From positions 1-64,000 of IMG/VR virus record IMGVR_UViG_3300043425_001539: a stretch of DNA of 64,000 bases; one strand, written 5' to 3'. The stretch comes from a virus. Made by a program: the position numbers and the translations under genes. The notes below the pieces were generated by a model. The model did not search any database, had not been told where the DNA came from, and was given only the letters and a program-made list of their open reading frames with translations. Below are positions 1 through 58,240 of this stretch, piece by piece; the stretch's first letter is position 1; every line of letters starts with the position of its first letter.

Positions 1-345
1 CTGATGTACCGTCTACACCCGAAGTTCCACTTGTGCCTGATGTGCCATCTATACCACTTGTGCCTGATGTGCCATCTATACCACTTGTGCCTGATGTGCC
101 ATCTATACCACTTGTGCCTGATGTGCCATCTATACCACTTGTGCCGTCTGTACCACTTGTACCTGAAGTGCCTGATGTACCATCTATACCTGAAGTTCCA
201 CTTGTGCCGTCTATACCTGAAGTTCCACTTGTGCCGTCTGTACCACTTGTACCTGAAGTGCCTGATGTACCATCTATACCTGAAGTTCCACTTGTGCCGT
301 CTGTACCACTTGTACCTGAAGTGCCGCTTGAACCTGATGAACTAC
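1..345 (-). repeat. Coding tandem repeats (GTSGTSG/GIDGTSG)
   Basis: Short in-frame repeats of 15-39 bases, built from ggc-aca-agt-ggt type codons, encode the glycine-repeat rod of the fibre gene. The copies are nearly identical at the DNA level, so copy number may vary by slippage or recombination. There are no unique spacers, so this is not a CRISPR array. Confidence 0.8.
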
Positions 346-1687
346 TTGATCCACCGCTTCCAGTATTACCACCTGATATAGGAATCATATCACCGTTTAA
401 AACCGACGCGGTTAACGATGTACTATAATGGTTTCTAACTACCTGATAAATCTTATGTGAAAAACGATCTATAATTATTTGGTCAGATACATAAGAAGCG
501 TCTGATAAATAATAAGAAACGCTTTGTCGTAATGTTTCTAAAATGTCTGAAACATTTTGAGACATTATTCCAAATGTTTTCCATATTTGACTTACACTAA
601 AAGGTCTTAAATTATTTGCAGCACTTGAGCCAGTATAATTTGCTGGAACAAAAACAGCCGCTAATACTAATTCATTAGAAGGAATTGCAATTTGATTATA
701 AATTGCTTCATCAGCCGCATCACCTATACCAAATATATTATTACCACCTACAGTTGAACTATTAGAAAGGGTTATAGTGTTTCCTGATACGTTTGTAACT
801 TTAGTACCAAAATCAAATCCATATCCATATATTAAATCGCCTGAGTTAACAACACCTCCACCTATTCTTGTTAAAACGTTTGATCCTGTTGAACTAGTTG
901 CATATAAACCAACATTTAAACCCAATGAATTTACAGAAATGGCAAATGATACATCAGTTGCTGATGATGCAAAAGTTGTATTGATTTGTATACCTGAAGC
1001 AGAAACAGACATTACGGTTGCCTGTGATGCAATACCGTTTCCTACTATAATATCACCAGGATTTATTCCGTACACTGATCCTGTTCCTCCTGCAAAAGTT
1101 ATAATATTTGAACCTCCTGTAACGTTTCCTATAAATGAAATAGGGCGCCCTGGAGGAGCTTCATTTCCTTGATGATAATTTATTTGTGCTGCATATTCTG
1201 TTGCATTAGAAGGCATTCCAGTAACTCCAGTGGCTGGCACAGGGTAATTTCCTGATATTGTAATAATATCAATCCTTCCATTTATTAAACTAGTGTTGGG
1301 AGCAATTTGAATATCTCCACTTGCAGATGATTGAGTGTGCCAATAAGTTCTTCCGTCAATTCTTGCTGCACCTGAATCAACAGATATCCATAAAGATCCA
1401 CCCGAAATGCCTGTACTCGGCTCTTTAACAGCAAGTCCTGAAAGAATGGAATTATTGGAATTTAATTCAATTATTTCTGAGCCATCTTGTGTGAATAATT
1501 TACCTTTACTTAGGTCAATTATTTCTTCTCCTTTATAAATTGTCTTTTCGTCAAAAGACAGCGGATCATCAATATGATTCAATCCGGGTTCAATGCTACG
1601 TGGTCTGTACCATGTAGCTGTGTCAGAAAGAAAATATTTACTTATTCTTCTAACGAATGATGTTATCAAATTAGTTTGCGTAGCCAC
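1..1687 (-). CDS. Collagen-like tail fibre or structural protein (3' end beyond window)
   Basis: A minus-strand reading frame runs from a GTG at 1687 to the left edge without a stop, so the C-terminus is missing. A TAG codon directly precedes the GTG, and no in-frame ATG lies near, so GTG is the start. The first ~440 residues are non-repetitive and rich in Gly, Ser, Thr, Asn and Ile, as in beta-structured phage fibres. From about position 350 down to 1 the frame becomes a Gly-X-Y-like run of GTSGTSG and GIDGTSG units. Such repeats occur in phage fibre and appendage proteins, where they form rod-like trimers. A host-binding or decorating fibre is an inference from composition and position next to other structural genes. 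Confidence 0.6.
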
Positions 1688-1778
1688 CTAAGATATTTTC
1701 ATTTTTTTTAATTTCATCACAAAGCTTATATTTTTAAAAATATTAAAAAAGCATGTTTGCGTATGTTTAATGCGCTTT

Positions 1779-1819
1779 AAAAAAACGCAAATTGAACGAT
1801 AACAATGTTACCGTTCAAT
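1779..1819 (-). terminator. Rho-independent terminator
   Basis: Two 13-base arms (1791-1803 and 1807-1819, one mismatch, 3-base loop) are followed on the minus strand by a T-rich tract with seven T (1779-1785). The hairpin includes the stop codon of the 28-codon gene at 1808-1894, so it closes that short transcript before the fibre gene begins at 1687. Confidence 0.65.
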
Positions 1820-1894
1820 TATTAAACCTCTAATTATTAATTTGGCTTTTTTTCTATTCTTTAAATTAATTAATCTAACTTTACAATTACACAT
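1808..1894 (-). CDS. 28-residue basic small protein
   Basis: ATG at 1894, stop TAA at 1808-1810. The predicted peptide begins MCNCKVRLIN and is rich in Lys, Arg, Leu and Ile with two cysteines near the N-terminus. It is too short for family assignment. Support comes from its setting: a perfect T4-type late promoter (TATAAATA) lies 19 bases upstream of the ATG, a normal distance for this genome, and a strong hairpin terminator overlaps the stop codon. It is therefore a self-contained late transcription unit. It could instead be a small non-coding RNA of about 100 nt. Confidence 0.4.
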   Translation of the reverse strand: MCNCKVRLINLKNRKKAKLIIRGLIIER

Positions 1895-1912
1895 GTCTTT
1901 GTCTCTTGATTT

Positions 1913-1920
1913 TATTTATA
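1913..1920 (-). promoter_or_regulatory. T4-type late promoter TATAAATA
   Basis: Exact TATAAATA on the minus strand, the -10 element recognised in T4 by the gp55-containing RNA polymerase. It lies 19 bases before the ATG of the 28-codon ORF and downstream of the gene ending at 1949. Confidence 0.6.
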
Positions 1921-1948
1921 TATCAATAAGATAAAGACAAAAAATTCT

Positions 1949-2248
1949 TTAAACAGTTTTAAATGTGGAAATTATACCGTGTACTTCAGTATTTTCAGGT
2001 GAGCCTTTTACTTCAATAACTTCTGAAACTCCTACCCAATATACGGCGCCTTCAACTAATGCATTTCCGCTAAAAGTCACAACTGATCCTCCTGATGTTT
2101 TAACTTTTAAAACTGATATGTTAGGATCCCATTTAAAAATATGCAAACCTATAATAGGGCGGCGTCCATCAGGCTTATGAACATACGATTTTTTTTCAGA
2201 AAAATACGTAGCTGTTATCGGAAAATAATTTGTTGCGAAAAAAGACAT
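1949..2248 (-). CDS. Hypothetical late protein
   Basis: The ORF encodes about 99 residues starting MSFFATNYFP from the ATG at 2248. A GTG nine bases further upstream overlaps the preceding gene, so the ATG is preferred: it lies one base after that gene's stop, a TAAxATG arrangement implying translational coupling. The middle section (VVTFSGNALVEGAVYWVGVSEV) alternates hydrophobic and polar residues and is probably beta-rich. No membrane segment or catalytic motif is visible. Position after a structural-type gene and before the fibre gene suggests a virion or assembly role, which is inference only. Confidence 0.55.
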   Translation of the reverse strand: MSFFATNYFPITATYFSEKKSYVHKPDGRRPIIGLHIFKWDPNISVLKVKTSGGSVVTFSGNALVEGAVYWVGVSEVIEVKGSPENTEVHGIISTFKTV

Positions 2249-2249
2249 A

Positions 2250-3356
2250 TTAAACACCTATTAATATCCGCATAGGAATATCAAATGAATGCGGATTTTT
2301 TAAATATACGGATTCTATAAATAAGTTATCTGTTTCAGTCACATCTTGCCCGCCTGATATAAGCATCATTTCTCCGCCAGTAATCCACTTAACAGAACTA
2401 GGACTCCAAACGTGATTAAGAATACCTTCGGTATTATTGCCTATATTAGTGTCAGTTGTAATTTGATAACCTTGAATTGATTGAATTAATGCTCTTTTAA
2501 AAGTATCCGTTGATATGTTAACTAAATCATTAGTATAAAAATGATAACCTATATGATCTTTGCTATTTCCATTCCAAGTATATAAATTATCATTACCATT
2601 TATCGAAATAGGAGAAACTTTTTGAAATTTCTCATATTCAGAAATTGATGTGTATTGAAAATATTTGACATTTGAAAGAATAATTCCTGATGAATCGGCG
2701 CAACCACATGAATCAGTATTTACTTTGTTAAATTCAGGTATTATTAGTATAATCTTTACTGCACCGTCAATATACTTGCGATACTTTTGAATTAAATTAC
2801 CAGGGTGTATATACGGAAAAGGTTCTGACCCACCAAATCCATCAATGTCAAAATAAAAAATGTGCCGATATTTAACACCTTTTTGAATAGCAGAAACAAC
2901 AAAACTTCCAACGGAAATATTTTGTGTATCAAAATTAACTAACGAATAGAGAGCGGAGTTTTGACCTACAGCGGAAGAAAGAGAGGAAGAAAAATTACCG
3001 TTTACTGTAAATTCGGTTGAACTTATTAAGTTTAATGAATCATCATATAATTCATATTTGTGTTTAGTTCCATTCCCGATTATATTAGGGGTATTAGTTA
3101 GATCAACAGAAAATTGATATTGCTCAGACAGTTCACCATATTCGGCAATCCCGCTAATATCAATTTTCTGCGTTGATCCTGCTCTAAGTATTAGTCGTTT
3201 GTCGTCATACCTATTCACAGGAATACATATTCCTTTTGTTGGAATAGCAATTTCTGTTTGTGCACCTTTTACAATTCCGTAGGACATCGGATCAATCAGT
3301 CTAAAACAACGTATTGAATAATCAGGTGGACATTTTATTTTGGGTACAACAGACAT
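2250..3356 (-). CDS. Hypothetical structural-type protein
   Basis: The 368-residue protein starts MSVVPKIKCP. It has no signal peptide, membrane segment or recognisable enzymatic motif. Composition (many Asn, Ser, Tyr, Ile; repeated short aromatic strands) resembles beta-rich phage virion proteins. It has several cysteines, including a C-G-C near the middle. It precedes the small ORF at 1949-2248 with tight spacing, and follows a run of membrane protein genes. A neck, baseplate or fibre-associated role is plausible but not shown by the sequence. Confidence 0.55.
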   Translation of the reverse strand: MSVVPKIKCPPDYSIRCFRLIDPMSYGIVKGAQTEIAIPTKGICIPVNRYDDKRLILRAGSTQKIDISGIAEYGELSEQYQFSVDLTNTPNIIGNGTKHKYELYDDSLNLISSTEFTVNGNFSSSLSSAVGQNSALYSLVNFDTQNISVGSFVVSAIQKGVKYRHIFYFDIDGFGGSEPFPYIHPGNLIQKYRKYIDGAVKIILIIPEFNKVNTDSCGCADSSGIILSNVKYFQYTSISEYEKFQKVSPISINGNDNLYTWNGNSKDHIGYHFYTNDLVNISTDTFKRALIQSIQGYQITTDTNIGNNTEGILNHVWSPSSVKWITGGEMMLISGGQDVTETDNLFIESVYLKNPHSFDIPMRILIGV

Positions 3357-5218: not shown

Positions 5219-5226
5219 TATTTAAG

Positions 5227-5646
5227 TTAAAAAAATTTAAAAAATAAATAAGAGATAATAGCACTGCTTGCTATGAATCCTATTATAATCCAAGTTGTTA
5301 ATATTCTGAAAATTGGATAATAAACTAATAAATACGAATCAGTAATTTTTGTAGGATCTTCAGCATCAGGTATTTGCTCCACTGAAACCGTCACAAATTC
5401 GCTTAGACCTATTTTATCCATATACTTATGGATAGGCAACATTTTGTTTTGCGCTTTAATGCGCAACACTTCAGGTGAATCTCCTTTATCTTCGGGTGAT
5501 GGATTAATTACAGTATAAACTCTGCATATCCAATCTACTCTTAAACCATGTTTATTAAAATCCACGGTATTTTTATGTTTTTTAATTATGTTTCTAGCAA
5601 TTAGAAAACCTTTAATGTCATACCAAATAAGTTTTAATCTTAACAT
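5227..5646 (-). CDS. Hypothetical protein with C-terminal membrane anchor
   Basis: 139 residues. The last 25 residues or so (LTTWIIIGFIASSAIISYLFF) form one strong membrane segment, making this a tail-anchored protein. The soluble part has no recognised motif. The ATG overlaps the stop of the sigma factor gene by seven bases, so its translation is probably coupled to it. A tail-anchored partner encoded directly after an ECF-type sigma factor invites comparison with membrane anti-sigma factors. However, no anti-sigma domain is visible, so this is only a hint from gene order. Confidence 0.5.
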   Translation of the reverse strand: MLRLKLIWYDIKGFLIARNIIKKHKNTVDFNKHGLRVDWICRVYTVINPSPEDKGDSPEVLRIKAQNKMLPIHKYMDKIGLSEFVTVSVEQIPDAEDPTKITDSYLLVYYPIFRILTTWIIIGFIASSAIISYLFFKFF

Positions 5647-6251
5647 GTTTCTTGATATCTTTTTACTAAATCAGAATTTTTTTGAATTAAATTTTGCCGA
5701 ACCAATTCACGGGCTTTGCGAATACGAGTCCTAACGGTGTTATGTTTCCAGCCAAGCTCTTCGGCTATATCTTCGTACTTTTTCTTTTGAACTTCTCTTA
5801 ATGTTAATACGATTTTATAAATATCTGGAAGTTCTTCAATAGCACTAAGTGCTTCACTGTACAATAAATCAATTGGATTTTCTTCTTGTTCGTAAACATC
5901 TTCGTGGTGTGGAGATTTCTTTTCCATATTAATTCCTTGCTCCTCCATACCTTCGTAGGAATAAATCCGTTTACGGCCACGGTGAAATAAAAGAGCTTCA
6001 TTTCGAGCAATTCGGTAAACCCATGTACTGAAGTTCCAATAAGGATCGTATTGTTCGATTTTACTCCATACCTTTGCAAAGGTTGTAGCAATTACCTCAT
6101 TGCGGTCATCTTGATTTGGTACCAATTCTCTAAGGTAATATGAGATGCTAGGCTTAAGTCTTGCATACACTCGAGAAAAATCCATTTCGGTGCGAGTATT
6201 AAAGAAAGACATACCCATTTCTTGTAATGATAATTCTTTTTCCTTTTTCAT
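5640..6251 (-). CDS. ECF-type RNA polymerase sigma factor
   Basis: 203 residues with both core sigma-70 domains. Region 2 spans about residues 25-95, with the helix containing NEVIATTFAKVW and the STWVYRIARNEAL core-binding/-10 segment. Region 4 spans about 135-187: LPDIYKIVLTLREV followed by a helix-turn-helix, YEDIAEELGWKHNTVRTRI. This layout, without regions 1 or 3, is that of extracytoplasmic-function sigma factors. It should redirect host RNA polymerase to phage promoters. It has its own TATATTTG promoter 29 bases upstream, the class also found before RNase H and ligase, so it is probably made early. It is distinct from the gp55-like factor at 27473-27817. Confidence 0.85.
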   Translation of the reverse strand: MKKEKELSLQEMGMSFFNTRTEMDFSRVYARLKPSISYYLRELVPNQDDRNEVIATTFAKVWSKIEQYDPYWNFSTWVYRIARNEALLFHRGRKRIYSYEGMEEQGINMEKKSPHHEDVYEQEENPIDLLYSEALSAIEELPDIYKIVLTLREVQKKKYEDIAEELGWKHNTVRTRIRKARELVRQNLIQKNSDLVKRYQETC

Positions 6252-27472: not shown

Positions 27473-27817
27473 TTATAGACTATAAAGGTTTTCGTTACTT
27501 AATGAAAGTTTATCAACGTCTCTAATAGGATGTAATTTTTTCCAACCTTTTGCAAAACCATTTTTAATTATTTGAGTGTAATAAGCAAAAGGATAATTTG
27601 ATTTAGCTGGGTCAAAACTTCGCCAATATTTAATTACATCCATAAGAGCAAACGCAATAACATCTTTGCGGTCTTCTTCGTTTTTGTATTTTAATTTTTT
27701 GGACGACTCTTTTGCCATTAATTGAAGCATTTCAATCGCACGAGGTGTTAATTCATCTTTTTCTTTTGATAAAAGAATTTCTTTTTTAAATTCTTCCGGG
27801 TCTACATAATTTGCCAT
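27473..27817 (-). CDS. 55: Late sigma factor (T4 gp55-like), short
   Basis: 114 residues, shorter than T4 gp55 (185). The pattern LTPRAIEMLQLMAKESSKKL, EDRKDVIAFALMDVIKYWRS, FDP, then PFAYYTQIIKNGFAKGWKKL corresponds to the reduced sigma region 2 of gp55-type late factors: core-binding helices followed by the -10 recognition segment. T4 gp55 directs RNA polymerase to TATAAATA, and that exact element occurs in this window at 1913, 30042, 39157 and 48243. The C-terminal sliding-clamp-binding tail of gp55 is very short here. Confidence 0.75.
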   Translation of the reverse strand: MANYVDPEEFKKEILLSKEKDELTPRAIEMLQLMAKESSKKLKYKNEEDRKDVIAFALMDVIKYWRSFDPAKSNYPFAYYTQIIKNGFAKGWKKLHPIRDVDKLSLSNENLYSL

Positions 27818-31722: not shown

Positions 31723-33642
31723 TCATCCAATCTTTTCTATGTTTAAGTTGGAAAAACCGTTATTTTTAATAATATCCACCTTATAATCAAATATTTCCGT
31801 AGGTAATTGTGAGTGATTAATTACAAATATGTTTAAATTTAATTCTCTGCATGTTTTATGTAAAACTTTTAAAATGTGATATATCCCATCTGAGTCTATT
31901 GAAGAAAATATTTCATCTAAATAAATTAAGTTTAAACCTGCAAATTTAGTTTTCATTAGTCGTATTAAAGCAATTAAAACCGCAAAATCAACTTTTTTGC
32001 GTTCACCTGTGCTTAATTGTTCCGCTGAAACTTTAAATCCTAGATGTTGAATATCAACGTCAAATTCTTCATTAAAACTTACTCTATAGTCCATGTTTAA
32101 ATCATTTAATACTTTTTTGATCTCAACATTTAATACAGGTAAAATTCTTTTTAATGCTGATACTTTTACTCCTTTGTCTCCAAAGATGTCTTCTATAATT
32201 TTGTAAAAATTTGCCTTTTTTTCATCAACAGTTTTTCTTTGTATTGCTTCATTTTTTTTATTTGAATTGTCATTAATTATATTCTTTAATGATTGCGTTT
32301 GTTCATCAACTGCATGATTTTCTTTTAATAAATTAATTTCATTGGTATAAGAATATAATTGGGATGATGCATTTATTTTTTTATTATTTAATTCTGAATA
32401 CGCAGATTTAATTTTTTCTTTGCGTTCAGATAATTCTTTTATTTTTTCTCGAGTTTCCTCTATAATTTTTCTAGAACTTTCATCTCTTTTGATATATTCA
32501 TGCAATAAAAATTTGTGATGCTCGGTTGTTAAATCCGACTCGCAAGTGGGACATTTACCATTTTCATATAATCTTATTTTTTCAGTACATATGTGAATTT
32601 CCGTTTTATGACCATTTATGATATTTTCCCATTCTTTTAAAGTTGCTTCTACATCGTTATTCTTTTCTTTTATTTGTTTTAAATTTTCATCGGCATTCTT
32701 TATAAACTCATTTAGTTTTTGTATTTTCTCTAATAGGATAGTTTTCTTTTCTTCGCTTGCTTCTTTAATTTTTTGATTTAATAATTCAAGTTCATTTACT
32801 GATGCCGTTATATTGCGTTCTATCACCGAAATTTCTGTGTCTATCAAATCTATTTGTTCTTTCATTGTTTTGATTTGATACTTAACTTTCCATTTAATAC
32901 TTCCTAAAACCTCTAATCCAAACAACCTGTCTATAATCATTCGTTTATCGTGTACACCCATACTGATAAAACTCTTAAAATCATTAATGGACAAAGATAC
33001 CATATTATTAAATACATAGTACGGAACCCCTAAAATTTCGTCTTCTAAAAAATCTTGAACATTCTTTTTTCCTGCTTGGTCATATTCAATACCATTAACA
33101 TAAACCTTAAAAATACTTGGTGCAATTCCTCTTTCTATAACAACATGTGTACTTGAATTTTTTTCTACTTCTATTTTAACATATAAAGCATTATTAAACC
33201 TATTAGGTAATTCTTTTAATTTTTTGCCATCAACTTTTCCGTACAATCCAAATTTAATAACATCCGAAAGAGTAGAATTGTGTGATACAATATTATTTGC
33301 AAAAAATTCATGAACAGTATCAACTTCTATGTCATACAAATCATCTTTGTAATTTAATATATCGTTTGCAACTATTTCTTCTAATCCATGCTCTGTTTCT
33401 ATATAATCTCCTATTTTTAAATGTTTTACTTTAACCCATTCATTTTTCCAAAGTAAATGATCAGGTGAAGTTTTAATAAATTTTCCAGAAACTAATTTAA
33501 CACAATGAACTTCAGAATTTCTTGCTGTTATATCAATAGCTTTAATATCACGTTTCCCATATCGAGTTTTAACTTTAATACCTTCTATTTTTTCATTTTC
33601 AAAATGAATAAAATCGTATAAATCTTTTAGCGTGCAATTCAT
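31723..33642 (-). CDS. 46: gp46 recombination ATPase, C-part, preceded by split intein C-half
   Basis: 639 residues. Residues 1-122 are intein: block B-like KTSPDHLLW, then KVKHLKIGDYI, and the C-terminal splice motif FFANNIVSHN. The extein starts with Ser at 123 (STLSDVIKFGLYG), which completes the P-loop begun by the N-part: GSNGAGK + ST. The extein has a Rad50-type zinc hook (CPTC near residue 365) between coiled coils, the signature LSTGERKKVDFA and Walker B LIYLDEIFSSID. Assembled gp46 is 41 + 517 = 558 residues (T4: 560). With gp47 it resects DNA ends for recombination. The ATG at 33642 lies inside the 3' end of the endonuclease gene. Confidence 0.92.
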   Translation of the reverse strand: MNCTLKDLYDFIHFENEKIEGIKVKTRYGKRDIKAIDITARNSEVHCVKLVSGKFIKTSPDHLLWKNEWVKVKHLKIGDYIETEHGLEEIVANDILNYKDDLYDIEVDTVHEFFANNIVSHNSTLSDVIKFGLYGKVDGKKLKELPNRFNNALYVKIEVEKNSSTHVVIERGIAPSIFKVYVNGIEYDQAGKKNVQDFLEDEILGVPYYVFNNMVSLSINDFKSFISMGVHDKRMIIDRLFGLEVLGSIKWKVKYQIKTMKEQIDLIDTEISVIERNITASVNELELLNQKIKEASEEKKTILLEKIQKLNEFIKNADENLKQIKEKNNDVEATLKEWENIINGHKTEIHICTEKIRLYENGKCPTCESDLTTEHHKFLLHEYIKRDESSRKIIEETREKIKELSERKEKIKSAYSELNNKKINASSQLYSYTNEINLLKENHAVDEQTQSLKNIINDNSNKKNEAIQRKTVDEKKANFYKIIEDIFGDKGVKVSALKRILPVLNVEIKKVLNDLNMDYRVSFNEEFDVDIQHLGFKVSAEQLSTGERKKVDFAVLIALIRLMKTKFAGLNLIYLDEIFSSIDSDGIYHILKVLHKTCRELNLNIFVINHSQLPTEIFDYKVDIIKNNGFSNLNIEKIG

Positions 33643-37077: not shown

Positions 37078-37401
37078 TTAGGACCAAGGATTATTAATAA
37101 CTTGATATTGCATTTCAGGTTTTTTACCTGACGTCAAACCTATTCTTTGTAAAAAAGCGCCTGGGCAATCTTCCGGATCAGCTGCATAATCCAAAAATCC
37201 TGAAAGCTCACTAATAGTGCCTACACCGTCTTTCATGTAAGGCCACACTTGAGACGGTGTAAAAGGACTATTTAGTTCTTCTTTGTCTGATAAGTTACTA
37301 AGAAGCATATATGTTAAATCAGTGTGTGATGGAAAGCTTTCCATCTCTTTATACACATTTAACAAATATTTAATAGGTAATTTGTTTTGATTAATCTTCA
37401 T
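37078..37401 (-). CDS. Hypothetical protein in the T4 gene 40 position
   Basis: About 107 residues from ATG 37401 (MKINQNKLPI); an ATG at 37407 is also possible. The frame extends further upstream, but that part is antisense-free overlap with the UvsX C-part and has a different composition, so it is not used. Contains WPYMKDGVGTISELSGFLDY and ends NNPWS. In T4 a small gene (40) also lies between uvsX and 41. I see no sequence evidence that the two are related. Confidence 0.5.
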   Translation of the reverse strand: MKINQNKLPIKYLLNVYKEMESFPSHTDLTYMLLSNLSDKEELNSPFTPSQVWPYMKDGVGTISELSGFLDYAADPEDCPGAFLQRIGLTSGKKPEMQYQVINNPWS

Positions 37402-38140
37402 TTTCATCTTCAAAAATATCTCCAATAATTTCGTCGTCTTCAATTTGATTAACGTCGCCAATATTTGGAAGCATAAACATTTTTTTGATAATTTTTTCGT
37501 CAAGCTCTTCTAATACTTCTTTAGTAATAACTCTTGAAGTAAATAAATCCTGTGGTTTAATTTCTTCGCACAAATGTCTGACTGCAATGGTACGTGCCGT
37601 TGGCTTATCTTCAAAATAAAAAACTGTTTCTGTTCCGTCTTCGTTAGTTTTGACGAATCTTGTTGACTCAATTATATCTTTTTTCTCATGTCCTTTTGCA
37701 TACGTTTTTTCAAATTCTTTTTGTGTAATTAGTTTACCTTTTTGAATCCCGCAATTTTCCCAATTTATGTATTCTTCTAATCCAACATAAGGATTCATTC
37801 CTTTATAAAAGGAAATATGGAATTTAATAGGTAAAGGACGAGCAAATCTATTTTTAGCTGGTTTTGAAGTTACGATAATTCCAGTTTTCATGGCAAAACC
37901 GTTAGAACCAACTGCTCCTTCTTTAAGGCCAGCTTTTGATAATTGAACTATGATTGATGCATTGTATATAGCTCCGCCGCCACCTGAAATTGTTTGTCCT
38001 GGAATAAAAGAACCGATTGAATTATGCATAATGACACCTTCTTTAGAAATATAATGGTGCTCATCTGCAACTTCAATATCATATACTGTGTTCAAGTTGC
38101 CTTGTTCTTTTTTAAGAAGTTTTAGTTTTTTCATATTCAT
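37391..38140 (-). CDS. uvsX: UvsX C-part preceded by split intein C-half
   Basis: 249 residues. Residues 1-40 are a conventional intein C-half: VYDIEVADEHHYISKEGVIM then HN. The extein begins with Ser 41 (SIGSFIPGQTISGGGG), which continues the UvsX chain ending FIFTNHTYA in the middle part. Downstream are AIYNASIIVQLSK, the C-terminal region typical of UvsX, and an acidic tail (EDDEIIGDIFEDENED), which in T4 UvsX contacts gp32/UvsY. The ATG (38140 or 38134) overlaps the endonuclease gene by 29 bases. Assembled UvsX is 68 + 140 + 209 = 417 residues (T4: 391). Confidence 0.92.
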   Translation of the reverse strand: MNMKKLKLLKKEQGNLNTVYDIEVADEHHYISKEGVIMHNSIGSFIPGQTISGGGGAIYNASIIVQLSKAGLKEGAVGSNGFAMKTGIIVTSKPAKNRFARPLPIKFHISFYKGMNPYVGLEEYINWENCGIQKGKLITQKEFEKTYAKGHEKKDIIESTRFVKTNEDGTETVFYFEDKPTARTIAVRHLCEEIKPQDLFTSRVITKEVLEELDEKIIKKMFMLPNIGDVNQIEDDEIIGDIFEDENED

Positions 38141-39149
38141 TTATTTTTAATTGTAATTCTTCATATGTTATGGAATTAGTTGCGCCTTTTGATAAATTTT
38201 CCACGAATGGAATAAATTCAAGATTTGCAATATGGGAAGCTATTAAAGGGTCTATACACATCTCAAAACAAGATCTGATTGACAAGCTATGATCTATGTG
38301 ATACATCATTTTTCCTCTTTTTATTTCCCAATTATTGCCAAATTTTGCGTTTCCATGGTTGATTAAAGTTTCTTCTGTTAATATTCTAACTAATTTTATA
38401 TATTCATTAAGAGTTAATATTTCTTGATTTATGAGTTTTTCAGATATAAATTTAACATCTTCAATGTCTATACCAAGTTTGGATGCCAACATTTTTCTTT
38501 TAAAAATGTCTACATGCATAGGATTACTTGTGTTATATTTTTGATTAAATGATGATAACCATTTTTCTTTAACATTTTTGTCTGACAGCGGATTTGGACC
38601 ACCGTATTTTTCTTTACATGTATTTTTTGCTTTTTCCTTAACAATGTCACTTTTTTGTGCTATTTCATTTCCGTACTTTATTTTCCAAGTTTTTGCTCTA
38701 GACTCTTTAAATCCTTCTATTTTAAAATTATGATTTACGCCGTATTTTTCTTGTAAGGTATTTTTTCGCTTCGTTTTAATTTCATTTTTTTCCGTCTCGC
38801 TAAGCATTGAATAAGTATTTGAATAAGATTCAGATCGTTTTCTTTTTATTTCTAAATCTTTAGCTTGATTAAATGCTCGACAAGAATGACTACAAAACAT
38901 TTTTTTCCCGCCGTCATTTATCAGAGTATTACATTCTTTACATATATTCATTTCTGTTAATTCATTAAGAATATACGTTATCCTAATTTTAATATCGGTG
39001 TCAGAATTACAAAAAGATGTATTTTCTATTATTAGATTATGTAAATCTTTTCTTTTATATAATTCTTTTTTAACATTTCCTAAATTAGAAGTATTTTTGT
39101 TTTTTTCTAATACAATTTTCCAATTATTTTCTGTAATGTGAAGTTTCAT
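38112..39149 (-). CDS. Free-standing HNH-type homing endonuclease in second UvsX split intein
   Basis: 345 residues lying between UvsX-middle and UvsX-C. It has a zinc-finger pair (CKECNTLI ... FCSHSC) near residue 95. A series of KYG repeats follows (TLQEKYGVNHNF, WKIKYG, CKEKYGGPNP, FNQKYNTSNP) of the type that reads DNA in modular phage endonucleases. The C-terminal HNH-like core is HIDHSLSIRSCFEMCIDPL, ANLEFIPFVENLSKGA. Its expected target is the uninterrupted uvsX of related phages. Its ATG is in the stem of a hairpin whose loop holds a late promoter (39138-39183), indicating that translation is blocked on read-through mRNA and allowed late. Confidence 0.8.
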   Translation of the reverse strand: MKLHITENNWKIVLEKNKNTSNLGNVKKELYKRKDLHNLIIENTSFCNSDTDIKIRITYILNELTEMNICKECNTLINDGGKKMFCSHSCRAFNQAKDLEIKRKRSESYSNTYSMLSETEKNEIKTKRKNTLQEKYGVNHNFKIEGFKESRAKTWKIKYGNEIAQKSDIVKEKAKNTCKEKYGGPNPLSDKNVKEKWLSSFNQKYNTSNPMHVDIFKRKMLASKLGIDIEDVKFISEKLINQEILTLNEYIKLVRILTEETLINHGNAKFGNNWEIKRGKMMYHIDHSLSIRSCFEMCIDPLIASHIANLEFIPFVENLSKGATNSITYEELQLKINEYEKTKTS

Positions 39150-39183
39150 AAGTTTTTATTTATATATCTCCATGAAACTTCAC
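39138..39183 (-). promoter_or_regulatory. Hairpin with loop-borne late promoter controlling the endonuclease
   Basis: GTGAAGTTTCAT (39138-39149) and ATGAAACTTCAC (39172-39183) are perfect complements, 12 bp. The loop of 22 bases carries TATAAATA on the minus strand (39164-39157). The endonuclease ATG (39149-39147) is in the downstream arm. Transcripts from upstream genes fold and hide the ATG; transcripts starting in the loop cannot. Confidence 0.75.
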
Positions 39184-39203: not shown

Positions 39204-40409
39204 TTATTGAGTTTGCTGCAAAATAAAATCACCTTCATTTAATTCATCTGCAGTTTTCCAGGAAGTCTCTTTATTCGGATCTTCATCCACAAGAAATTTA
39301 TGTAAAGGAGAACACTCAATTTCAATATTGTCTTCAAAAAATAATTTAACTGTTCTTGTTTTATCATATTTAAAAGTGTTTAACACCTCTTTACCGCCGT
39401 AAACAGTCATAACGGTATCACCTATTTTAATTTCATTAAGTTGTTTAATTTCGCCATTACCCATCATAATTTCTGTATCGCCTAAGGCACAAGCATATGT
39501 GTGATTTGTGAATATAAACGGGATTTTAAATTCTGCAAGATCTGTAGTAATCACACGGAAAAGTGATCTTAGATCTTGTTGTTTTGTCATATCCTTTTTT
39601 TCACTTCCTGATGCTGCATCTGCTTTTTCTTTGGTTGTTGCAAGATTTCCTAAAGAATCAAGAACCAATAAAATTTTAGGTAATTCTGCTCCTTTATCTT
39701 TTGCTTTTTTAAGTTGGTCACAAAGATTAGAAACAAAATGTCGTACTTCAAGTGATGTACTTACAGGTTGATACCGAACTCCTTCAGGGTCTATTCCAAA
39801 GTTACGCATAGTAGTTTCATCAACCGCAGCTTCTGAGTCACAGTATATAATATGATATCCCATTTTTTGGGCTTCACGGCAAGCATTCAAGGTTAAGAAT
39901 GTTTTTCCTGTGTTATGTGAAGATATACCGTCGCCGGCCCAATACCTATGATTTTCATGAAGCACCTCCCAGTCATATACTTCTTCTGTTCTTGTTGCAG
40001 AACATTTTTTTACATTATAAAAGCCATCTTTAGTTAAAACAGAATCCTTTGTTGTTAAATCTTCTGCTTTTTTCCAGCCATTTAATGTTTCATAAAGATG
40101 ATCTTGTGAAGATTCGCATACATAATTATTTTCTAATTCTAATTTGTATATTTTTCTTGGTTTCTTAATATAAAAGTTTCCAATAGGTTGATAACCGTCT
40201 GGTGTATCAATAAAAATTGCCGAATCTTTTAAAGATACTAATTCTCCAGCTGTAATTTCTATTGAATTTTCTTCAGCATGTAAATTAAATCTCTGTATAA
40301 TTTCATTATCCGATAAATGATCAAAATTTTCTTTAGGATAACAAAATTTTAATTCTTCGCGTAAAATTTCAGGGTCATAAATTGCTTTTTCTGTTTCAAG
40401 ATTTTGCAT
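39204..40409 (-). CDS. uvsX: UvsX middle part flanked by two split-intein halves
   Basis: 401 residues in three sections. Residues 1-166 are the C-half of intein 1: block B-like ESSQDHLYET with LNGWKKAEDL, ending YWAGDGISSHN. Residues 167-306 are UvsX: TGKTFLTLNACREAQ completes the P-loop, followed by IIYCDSEAAVDETT, the Walker B LLVLDSLGNL and IPFIFTNHTYA. Residues 307-401 are the N-half of intein 2: CALGDTEIMM, IKIGDTVMT, IECSPLHKFLV and ELNEGDFI. Splicing must occur at both ends to give active recombinase. A TTGAATATAA promoter-like element precedes the ATG by 22 bases, inside the end of the neighbouring endonuclease gene region. Confidence 0.93.
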   Translation of the reverse strand: MQNLETEKAIYDPEILREELKFCYPKENFDHLSDNEIIQRFNLHAEENSIEITAGELVSLKDSAIFIDTPDGYQPIGNFYIKKPRKIYKLELENNYVCESSQDHLYETLNGWKKAEDLTTKDSVLTKDGFYNVKKCSATRTEEVYDWEVLHENHRYWAGDGISSHNTGKTFLTLNACREAQKMGYHIIYCDSEAAVDETTMRNFGIDPEGVRYQPVSTSLEVRHFVSNLCDQLKKAKDKGAELPKILLVLDSLGNLATTKEKADAASGSEKKDMTKQQDLRSLFRVITTDLAEFKIPFIFTNHTYACALGDTEIMMGNGEIKQLNEIKIGDTVMTVYGGKEVLNTFKYDKTRTVKLFFEDNIEIECSPLHKFLVDEDPNKETSWKTADELNEGDFILQQTQ

Positions 40410-54566: not shown

Positions 54567-55646
54567 TCATCCTTCACAACTTACGCAATCTGGGTCAGTT
54601 GCTCTTGCTGCTATATCACCTCGTAATACACTTTCTGTCCTTGTATAATATAAAGTTTTAATACCTTGTCGCCAAGCTTCCATATGTACTTGGTTAATCC
54701 ATTTAGGTTCAGCGCTTGAAGGGAAGGCAAGATTTAAAGAGACAGATTGATCTATGTATTGTTGTCGTATCCCAGCTTGCTTGACTAAATCCAATTGATT
54801 AATTTCTTTAAATGTCTTAAATACATCTTTAACCATATTGCATCTGTTTTGCTCATCTTGAGTTAATTCGTTAAAATTACACACCTTTCCGTCAAGAAAA
54901 CACCAGGAATCCAAAAAGTCCAGTCCTTGAATAGAACCGCCGTCCACAAAAATTTGATCCCAAACTTCTTTGGTATTTTTACCAATTCCTTCAAGTACTT
55001 TTTCAAGTTCGTGGTTTTTTCTAATAAAAGTTCCTTTTGCAGTTTGCTCAGTAAAAACATTGGCAGCCCAAGGCTCAATACCTGAAGATACGTTTCCACT
55101 TAATTTGGAATTTGACACAGTTGGAGCAACAGCACGTAAATGTGTATTTCTAAATCCTGTGTCTTTGCACCATAAAGGTTCACCGTATTCGTTTGCCAAA
55201 TCTCTACTTGCTCTTTCGCTTTCAATTTTTAATTGTGAAAAAATTCTGCGAGTTTCAAACTGAGCCTGTAGGCCTTCAAAAGGAATTCCGTTTTGTTGCA
55301 AATATGTATGCCATCCAAGTACGCCTAATCCTAATGCTCTTCCTTTTTCAGCTGATCTTACAGCATTTTCAAAGCCTTTCATATTTTTGGCTTTTTGTAT
55401 AAATTCCTCTAAAACTCCATCCAAAAACCAAGTAGCTGTATACATCAAATCCGTATCTTTCCACTCGTTGTATTTAGCAAGATTGAGAGAACTTAAACAA
55501 CAAACAAAAGAGTGCGATTCATCAGTGAAAAGCACAATTTCACTACAATTATGGACTAATATATCATTAGCATAAAAGTTTTTATTTTCAGCAACTGTTA
55601 TATCATAAACCGGTTCACGTTTTGTTGTTTTTTTAATTTTTAACAT
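54567..55646 (-). CDS. nrdA: Ribonucleotide reductase large subunit, C-part, preceded by split intein C-half
   Basis: 359 residues. Residues 1-33 are the intein C-half (EPVYDITVAENKNFYANDIL, VHN). The extein begins at Cys 34 (CSEIVLFTDES), which corresponds to the thiyl-radical cysteine of class I reductases (E. coli C439 in NLC-x-E-I). SFVCCLSSLNL holds the redox partner (C462 equivalent). TLYYTRTES has the two radical-transfer tyrosines, and CVSC at the end is the swivelling C-terminal pair. Together with the N-part it gives a 598-residue subunit, shorter than T4 NrdA (754). Confidence 0.92.
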   Translation of the reverse strand: MLKIKKTTKREPVYDITVAENKNFYANDILVHNCSEIVLFTDESHSFVCCLSSLNLAKYNEWKDTDLMYTATWFLDGVLEEFIQKAKNMKGFENAVRSAEKGRALGLGVLGWHTYLQQNGIPFEGLQAQFETRRIFSQLKIESERASRDLANEYGEPLWCKDTGFRNTHLRAVAPTVSNSKLSGNVSSGIEPWAANVFTEQTAKGTFIRKNHELEKVLEGIGKNTKEVWDQIFVDGGSIQGLDFLDSWCFLDGKVCNFNELTQDEQNRCNMVKDVFKTFKEINQLDLVKQAGIRQQYIDQSVSLNLAFPSSAEPKWINQVHMEAWRQGIKTLYYTRTESVLRGDIAARATDPDCVSCEG

Positions 55647-57109: not shown

Positions 57110-58240
57110 TTAATTTGTAATTAAAATGTCATCTTCCAATAAATCTTTTGCCTCTACCCAACCTCTTTGTGTAAATAATTTATGATTAGCTGTGCATTTT
57201 ATTGTTTTATTATTATCTAAATCTTCAATTTCATATACTTCAGCTGAATCATCAGTCATACCAAAATCGGTTATTAATTTCCATTCATTTATGTTAGTAT
57301 CAATATTACGTGATAGCGTATAAATTTGATCTTCTAATTTAAGTATTTCACCAATTTCATCTATTCTTACTTTATGAATTTCATCACTTATTTTAATATC
57401 AATTATCGTATCACCTGTCACACAAATATTAGTCATAAATACTTTTAGACCGTTTTTCTTATATGATTCGGGGTTTTGTTTATTGACATTGCCTTTAAAC
57501 ATAATATAAGGTTCACCGGTCGCTTTTCTTTTTTGCAAAAGTTTGCCCCATTTACGGCGTGCTTCGGTATCACCATCTAATAATTTGCGCATAAATTTAT
57601 CACCAACAACTGCGCATTGATGCATATTTAATGATTGGCGATTAACATCACCTTTAGGTTCTCGTGTTTCCAACCAATCTTCAAAATCTTTATGCTCAAT
57701 ATTAATATTTGTACTTGCTGCGCCTCTTCTTACAGCACCTTGATTGGTTGCAAGAATTGTTGAATCATAAATTTTGCAAAAAGGAACCACTCCATCTGAT
57801 GTTCCATTACCCGTTATTTTTGATCCAGCAGGTCTGATTTGATTAATACCAATACCTACTCCACCTCCATGTTTTGCAAGCAACATTAGTTCCAAATTTT
57901 TAGAACCTATTTCATAAATACTATCGCCAACATCAATCCCAAAACAACTAATAGGTAATCCTCTATCTGTTCCCATATTTGACAAAACTGGTGATGCCAA
58001 GCCTAGCCAGCCTTTCCAAATATAATCAAAAAATTTAGTAGCAAGGTGTGGCTTTCCTAATCTTTTAGCAACAGTGGTAGAAACCCGCCAATAAGCATCT
58101 TTAGGTTTTTCTCCCGCTAAAAGATATCCTTTGGATATTGTGTTAACATAAATTTCTGTTGCGCCCCAATCAGGAATATCAACTCCAAGTTCCCAGCCCA
58201 ACATATCTAATAATTCTTGTACTTTTTCGTTATTCATCAT
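57110..58240 (-). CDS. nrdA: Ribonucleotide reductase large subunit, N-part, fused to intein N-half
   Basis: 376 residues. Residues 1-272 are NrdA: LASPVLSNMGTDRGLPISCF with the first redox cysteine, GGGVGIGINQIRPAG, GAVRRGAASTNINIEHKDF and a terminal VFMTNI. There is no N-terminal ATP cone, so allosteric activity control is absent. Residues 273-376 are the intein N-half: CVTGDTIIDI, IYTLSRNI, block B-like TIKCTANHKLFTQRGWVEAK and DLLEDDILITN. Splicing joins MTNI to CSEI of the C-part. This is a conventionally split intein. It follows NrdB by 16 bases. Confidence 0.93.
   Translation of the reverse strand: MMNNEKVQELLDMLGWELGVDIPDWGATEIYVNTISKGYLLAGEKPKDAYWRVSTTVAKRLGKPHLATKFFDYIWKGWLGLASPVLSNMGTDRGLPISCFGIDVGDSIYEIGSKNLELMLLAKHGGGVGIGINQIRPAGSKITGNGTSDGVVPFCKIYDSTILATNQGAVRRGAASTNINIEHKDFEDWLETREPKGDVNRQSLNMHQCAVVGDKFMRKLLDGDTEARRKWGKLLQKRKATGEPYIMFKGNVNKQNPESYKKNGLKVFMTNICVTGDTIIDIKISDEIHKVRIDEIGEILKLEDQIYTLSRNIDTNINEWKLITDFGMTDDSAEVYEIEDLDNNKTIKCTANHKLFTQRGWVEAKDLLEDDILITN

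Follow-up and report, generated by a model that had tools for sequence, protein, structure and literature searches.

A late promoter probably retained after gene loss ahead of a fibre gene in a T4-type phage

A late promoter, a 28-codon open reading frame (ORF) and a hairpin located directly upstream of a collagen-like fibre gene in a T4-type phage are probably the scar of a lost gene, of which the late promoter has been retained. In related phages, the same promoter, between the same neighbours, appears from sequence comparison to belong to a conserved gene of ~138 codons. Such a case would illustrate how a promoter can persist after its gene has been lost and mimic a self-contained mini-gene.

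Genomic context

The stretch of DNA analysed here (hereafter, the window) is taken from a virus record of 238,475 bases, of which it covers the first 64 kb; the record has a G+C content of 31.9%, and nearly all genes are on the minus strand. The terminase encoded in the window is distantly related to T4-type terminases, among them those of Sphingomonas phage PAU, Prevotella Lak phages and metagenomic phages, and the 238-kb record is that of a T4-type phage. The short unit lies on the minus strand between g102 (1949–2257) and the fibre gene starting at 1687. A second contig of 49 kb, which carries the identical twin of the locus (L014), is identical over 5 kb, so that a chimeric assembly is less likely. 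The features of the locus are as follows:

1–1687, minus strand: collagen-like fibre gene, starting with GTG and continuing beyond the window edge; the downstream neighbour in every relative
1688–1722, minus strand: putative 3' relic of the UvrB/C-motif gene (..DEIKKNEN..), ~30 bases, frameshifted, with its stop codon abutting the fibre GTG
1790–1820, minus strand: hairpin AATTGAACGGTAAC-ATT-GTTATCGTTCAATT, overlapping the stop codon of the 28-codon ORF; single copy in the genome
1808–1894, minus strand: 28-codon ORF MCNCKVRLINLKNRKKAKLIIRGLIIER, with its ATG at the position where the UvrB/C-motif gene starts in relatives
1917–1924, minus strand: late promoter box GATATATA (context ATTGATATATAAATAAA), a genome-wide upstream motif ranked second by the weight matrix and found at the same place in 11 related loci
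1931–1941, minus strand: TTTGTCT, left arm of a weak inverted repeat of 7 bp that flanks the promoter, the right arm (AGACAAA) lying between the box and the ATG
1949–2257, minus strand: g102, upstream neighbour, 61% identical in the related locus L004, with conserved gene order
2250–3356, minus strand: g368, upstream neighbour, 72% identical in L004, with conserved gene order

The N terminus of the fibre protein is conserved as well (77% identity to L004). The part of the fibre gene at window positions 1–360 encodes collagen-like GTSGTSG(I/T)DGTS repeats, and the gene runs off the record; the fibre genes of relatives contain long SGTSGSS or GPTGPTG repeats.

A variant late promoter motif

A sequence-only reading of this DNA had placed a perfect late promoter, TATAAATA, at 1913–1920. 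This octamer is present there (1920–1913, minus strand), but is not enriched in the genome, with 64 copies on both strands versus 80 for a reversed control, and was rejected as the late promoter of this phage. We sought the late motif as words enriched within 60 bases before genes. The word GATATATA, along with neighbouring words, came out enriched, yielding the motif GATATATA[AG]. GATATATA is on the coding strand in 32 of its 34 copies, the TATATA boxes cluster ~15–35 bases ahead of gene starts, and in a 36-kb contig of a relative all eight copies of GATATATA are found on one strand. The box at 1924–1917 overlaps the octamer with an offset of 4 bases. When a weight matrix was trained on other genes, with this site left out, the box ranked second among all positions of the genome, and its score was matched by no position in three simulated genomes. 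The promoter claimed previously thus stands, whereas its register and motif have to be corrected. The ATG at 1894 follows 30 bases after the box, which is the usual distance in this genome, and both the late promoter at 1924–1917 and its spacing to the start codon are well supported.

The window also encodes a gp55-like late sigma factor (27473–27817; PHROG 234, late sigma factor, E = 1.6e-13), which has 235 relatives in IMG/VR and presumably reads the GATATATA box. Alongside it, there is a second, ECF-like sigma factor with regions 2 and 4 (5640–6251). As in the late promoters recognized by T4 gp55 (PMC2988020), a single 8-bp TATA-like box lies near the gene, is followed by AT-rich DNA, and is accompanied by a gp55-type sigma factor encoded in the genome. 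Unlike in T4, however, the predicted consensus is GATATATA[AG] rather than TATAAATA. The late box of phage Aeh1 deviates from that of T4 too, with a/gC at positions −13/−12 (PMC2988020). The box of the present phage would accordingly be a variant consensus that works like the T4 late promoter, and the T4 precedent (PMC2988020) would place the transcription start near 1911. The likely late motif of this group of T4-type phages is thereby corrected from TATAAATA to GATATATA[AG], with which late transcription units could be mapped across many uncultured relatives.

The equivalent locus in related phages

The comparison set consisted of 15 IMG/VR loci that hold a relative of the N terminus of the fibre gene; several of these are near copies, such that about six lineages are represented. 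In 13 of the 15 loci, a gene of ~138 codons is located directly upstream of the fibre gene and ends at the fibre start, with the start of the fibre gene tightly coupled to the upstream stop codon. The two loci that lack this gene are L014 and L120. The GATATATA[AG] box is found ahead of the gene in 11 of the 13 loci, at 27–32 bases from the conserved start methionine (Met-7 being taken in L004). The encoded proteins, which show 51–59% identity to the L004 protein, end in a UvrB/UvrC motif (Pfam PF02151, E = 1.5e-6). A search with the predicted structure (model pLDDT of 81) yielded no significant fold match. In L120, a different ORF (L120:3382–4001) occupies the place of the UvrB/C-motif gene ahead of the fibre gene, indicating that this slot has been altered more than once.

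Absence of the gene and a putative relic

The UvrB/C-motif gene was not found in the 238-kb record by either tblastn or profile search. Relocation of the gene within the record was considered and rejected, the only candidate being a UVR-like tail, matched weakly at 53.9 kb (E of about 1). The window sequence immediately preceding the fibre start, ..GATGAAATTAAAAAAAATGAAAATATCTTAG, resembles the one with which the L004 gene ends (GACGAGATCAAAAATAACATAGGTATATCTTAA, encoding DEIKNNIGIS followed by a stop codon). In alignments to L004 anchored at the fibre start, only 0.1–0.4% of random genome segments of 20–30 bases were as good. Against the other relatives, the anchored match was weaker, with 0.8–15% of random segments as good, depending on length. 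Free local alignment of the same stretch was not significant, significance being reached only with the anchor, and we therefore refer to this relic as putative. The possibility that the 28-codon ORF is what remains of the start of the lost gene was rejected, given that 99 of 200 shuffled sequences scored as well against the family profile and the DNA comparison was not significant either. With no detectable homology between the 5' part of the ORF and the lost gene, the latter is tied to the locus only by the position of the promoter and the weak 3' relic.

Under the scenario that we favour, the ancestor had the order g102, late promoter GATATATA, a UvrB/UvrC-motif gene of ~138 codons and a fibre gene starting at the stop codon of the latter. 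The middle gene would then have been lost in this lineage, rather than gained elsewhere, leaving behind a short 3' relic and the promoter with an ATG at the ancestral spacing, and the gap would now be filled by the hairpin and a 28-codon frame of chance or residual origin. Several considerations weigh against this scenario. The UvrB/C-motif gene may lie outside the record, which is possibly incomplete, and the slot may simply be variable, as L120 with its other ORF illustrates. Furthermore, an unusually long hairpin is left unexplained by a mere scar. In our best reading, the short ORF is incidental.

The short ORF, the hairpin and transcription of the fibre gene

The ATG at 1894 and the 28-codon frame (1894–1808) described in the sequence-only reading are both present, and the hairpin (1820–1790; 14 pairs, loop of three) does overlap the end of this frame, with the stop codon located inside its left arm. 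The T tract that was thought to share in this overlap lies beyond the stem, which is followed by TGCG and only then by seven T residues, four bases off; in the other intergenic hairpins of the genome, the T run comes directly after the stem. The 1-kb region contains one terminator-like site versus 0.4 expected, and there are about eight intergenic terminator-like hairpins in the 238 kb, including this one, which is unusually long for this genome. The hairpin is beyond chance. Being present in a single copy in the genome, it was rejected as a repeated element, and in the absence of an exact match in a collection of bacterial genomes, it was also rejected as a host-derived terminator.

The late promoters able to serve the fibre gene, namely, the 1924 box and, less strong, a AATATATAA box near 5225, are both upstream of the hairpin, and between 1924 and the fibre start there is no other late promoter (best score of 2.4 bits versus 17.5, overlapping registers aside). 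Hence, if the fibre is made late, the polymerase would have to pass the hairpin, which favours a leader with a leaky hairpin over a closed 110-nt unit. The late RNA polymerase would start near 1911, producing an RNA on which the 28 codons may be translated. The hairpin would probably act as a partial terminator at most, with the polymerase continuing into the fibre gene, for which the 1924 box would be the nearest late promoter. Given the displaced T tract and the lack of another nearby late promoter for the fibre gene, the notion of a self-contained unit is not supported, and the unit is probably a leader for the fibre mRNA.

Neither the 28-codon peptide nor the hairpin is conserved, as far as this can be assessed among the searched records and relatives, both being seen elsewhere only in the identical contig, and the codon usage of the ORF is not gene-like; a functional micropeptide or a ~110-nt small RNA, as originally envisaged, thus finds no backing. 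It is unlikely that the ORF is a new-born or acquired late gene for a basic 28-aa peptide with a Cys-x-Cys start, acting late in infection. A top-ranked late promoter precedes its ATG at the modal distance, the start context, although intermediate, is within the top 16–25% of non-start ATGs, and the genome has other short late ORFs of 59–63 codons. The size of the ORF and the ease with which gene finders would miss it are also reminiscent of small phage proteins (reviewed in PMC11323111), but, unlike these, it has no conservation or translation support. Among real gene starts, its codon score falls at the 6th percentile, and it is close to the average for ORFs that are not genes. The peptide has no match in 50,697 phage records and is absent from the loci of relatives except for the identical twin, the only other copy of the ORF being in the contig identical over 5 kb. 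A match of the peptide to PHROG 17736 (E = 0.04) was taken as chance, and blastn matches of the region in phages were dismissed as short, AT-rich and due to chance. Moreover, a rough estimate from base composition suggests that, in such AT-rich DNA, a chance ORF of this size and distance would follow a few per cent of promoters. Birth of a gene at the inherited promoter, whereby the loss of a conserved structural-operon gene was followed by de novo emergence of a 28-aa peptide or small RNA with a new hairpin end, appears quite unlikely.

A late RNA of ~130 nt, extending from near 1911 to the hairpin and T tract and acting as RNA, is improbable. The fold of the region is stronger than those of shuffled sequences (z = −3.55) and the hairpin is terminator-like, but the low energy stems largely from the hairpin itself, the T tract begins four bases past the stem, and there is no Rfam match for the region. 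In addition, relatives lack the hairpin, the next gene abutting there, and termination at this site would deprive the fibre gene of its upstream late promoters. We give still less credence to a regulatory leader in which the short ORF, as an upstream ORF, and the hairpin, as an attenuator, tune fibre expression. Such a role would fit the location of both elements between the promoter nearest to the fibre gene and the gene itself, as well as the coupling of the fibre start to the upstream stop codon in relatives; however, the arrangement is found in one lineage only, is not conserved and comes with no demonstrated alternative structures. On this balance, the gene-loss scar is the reading that we retain.

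Additional promoters and other features

In T4, the late promoters of genes e, soc, 49 and I-TevI are located inside hairpins that sequester the ribosome-binding site (PMC3014915). Similarly, several late promoters of the present genome lie between the arms of inverted repeats, including repeats of 13 bp at window 39161–39168, 20 bp at G000 107987 and 10 bp at G000 177880. Unlike in the T4 genes, the repeat at the 1924 box is only 7 bp long and not significant (p ~0.09 versus shuffles), and was dropped as a feature of the locus. The promoter at 39161 precedes a DUF7487 ORF (38112–39149), which adjoins an apparent piece of a UvsX/RecA gene (39204–40409, by eye). At window 16877, a 20-codon ORF, MKEINRKITNKAEWQKSRLI, is located between a late promoter and a probable tail sheath gene, overlapping the start of the latter.

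In the G000 region at ~193–237 kb (L011–L013), a repeated element, ..AAAAAGTATGTATATTTGTATATAA, is found ahead of many small ORFs. Within this element, TATATTTG fits the Bacteroidota −7 box TAnnTTTG, and the copies are probably early promoters read by a host sigma factor. Finally, on visual inspection of the translations, several core genes of replication and nucleotide metabolism are seemingly split by intein-like or homing-endonuclease-like segments (window 31723–33642, 37391–38140, 39204–40409, 54567–55646 and 57110–58240).
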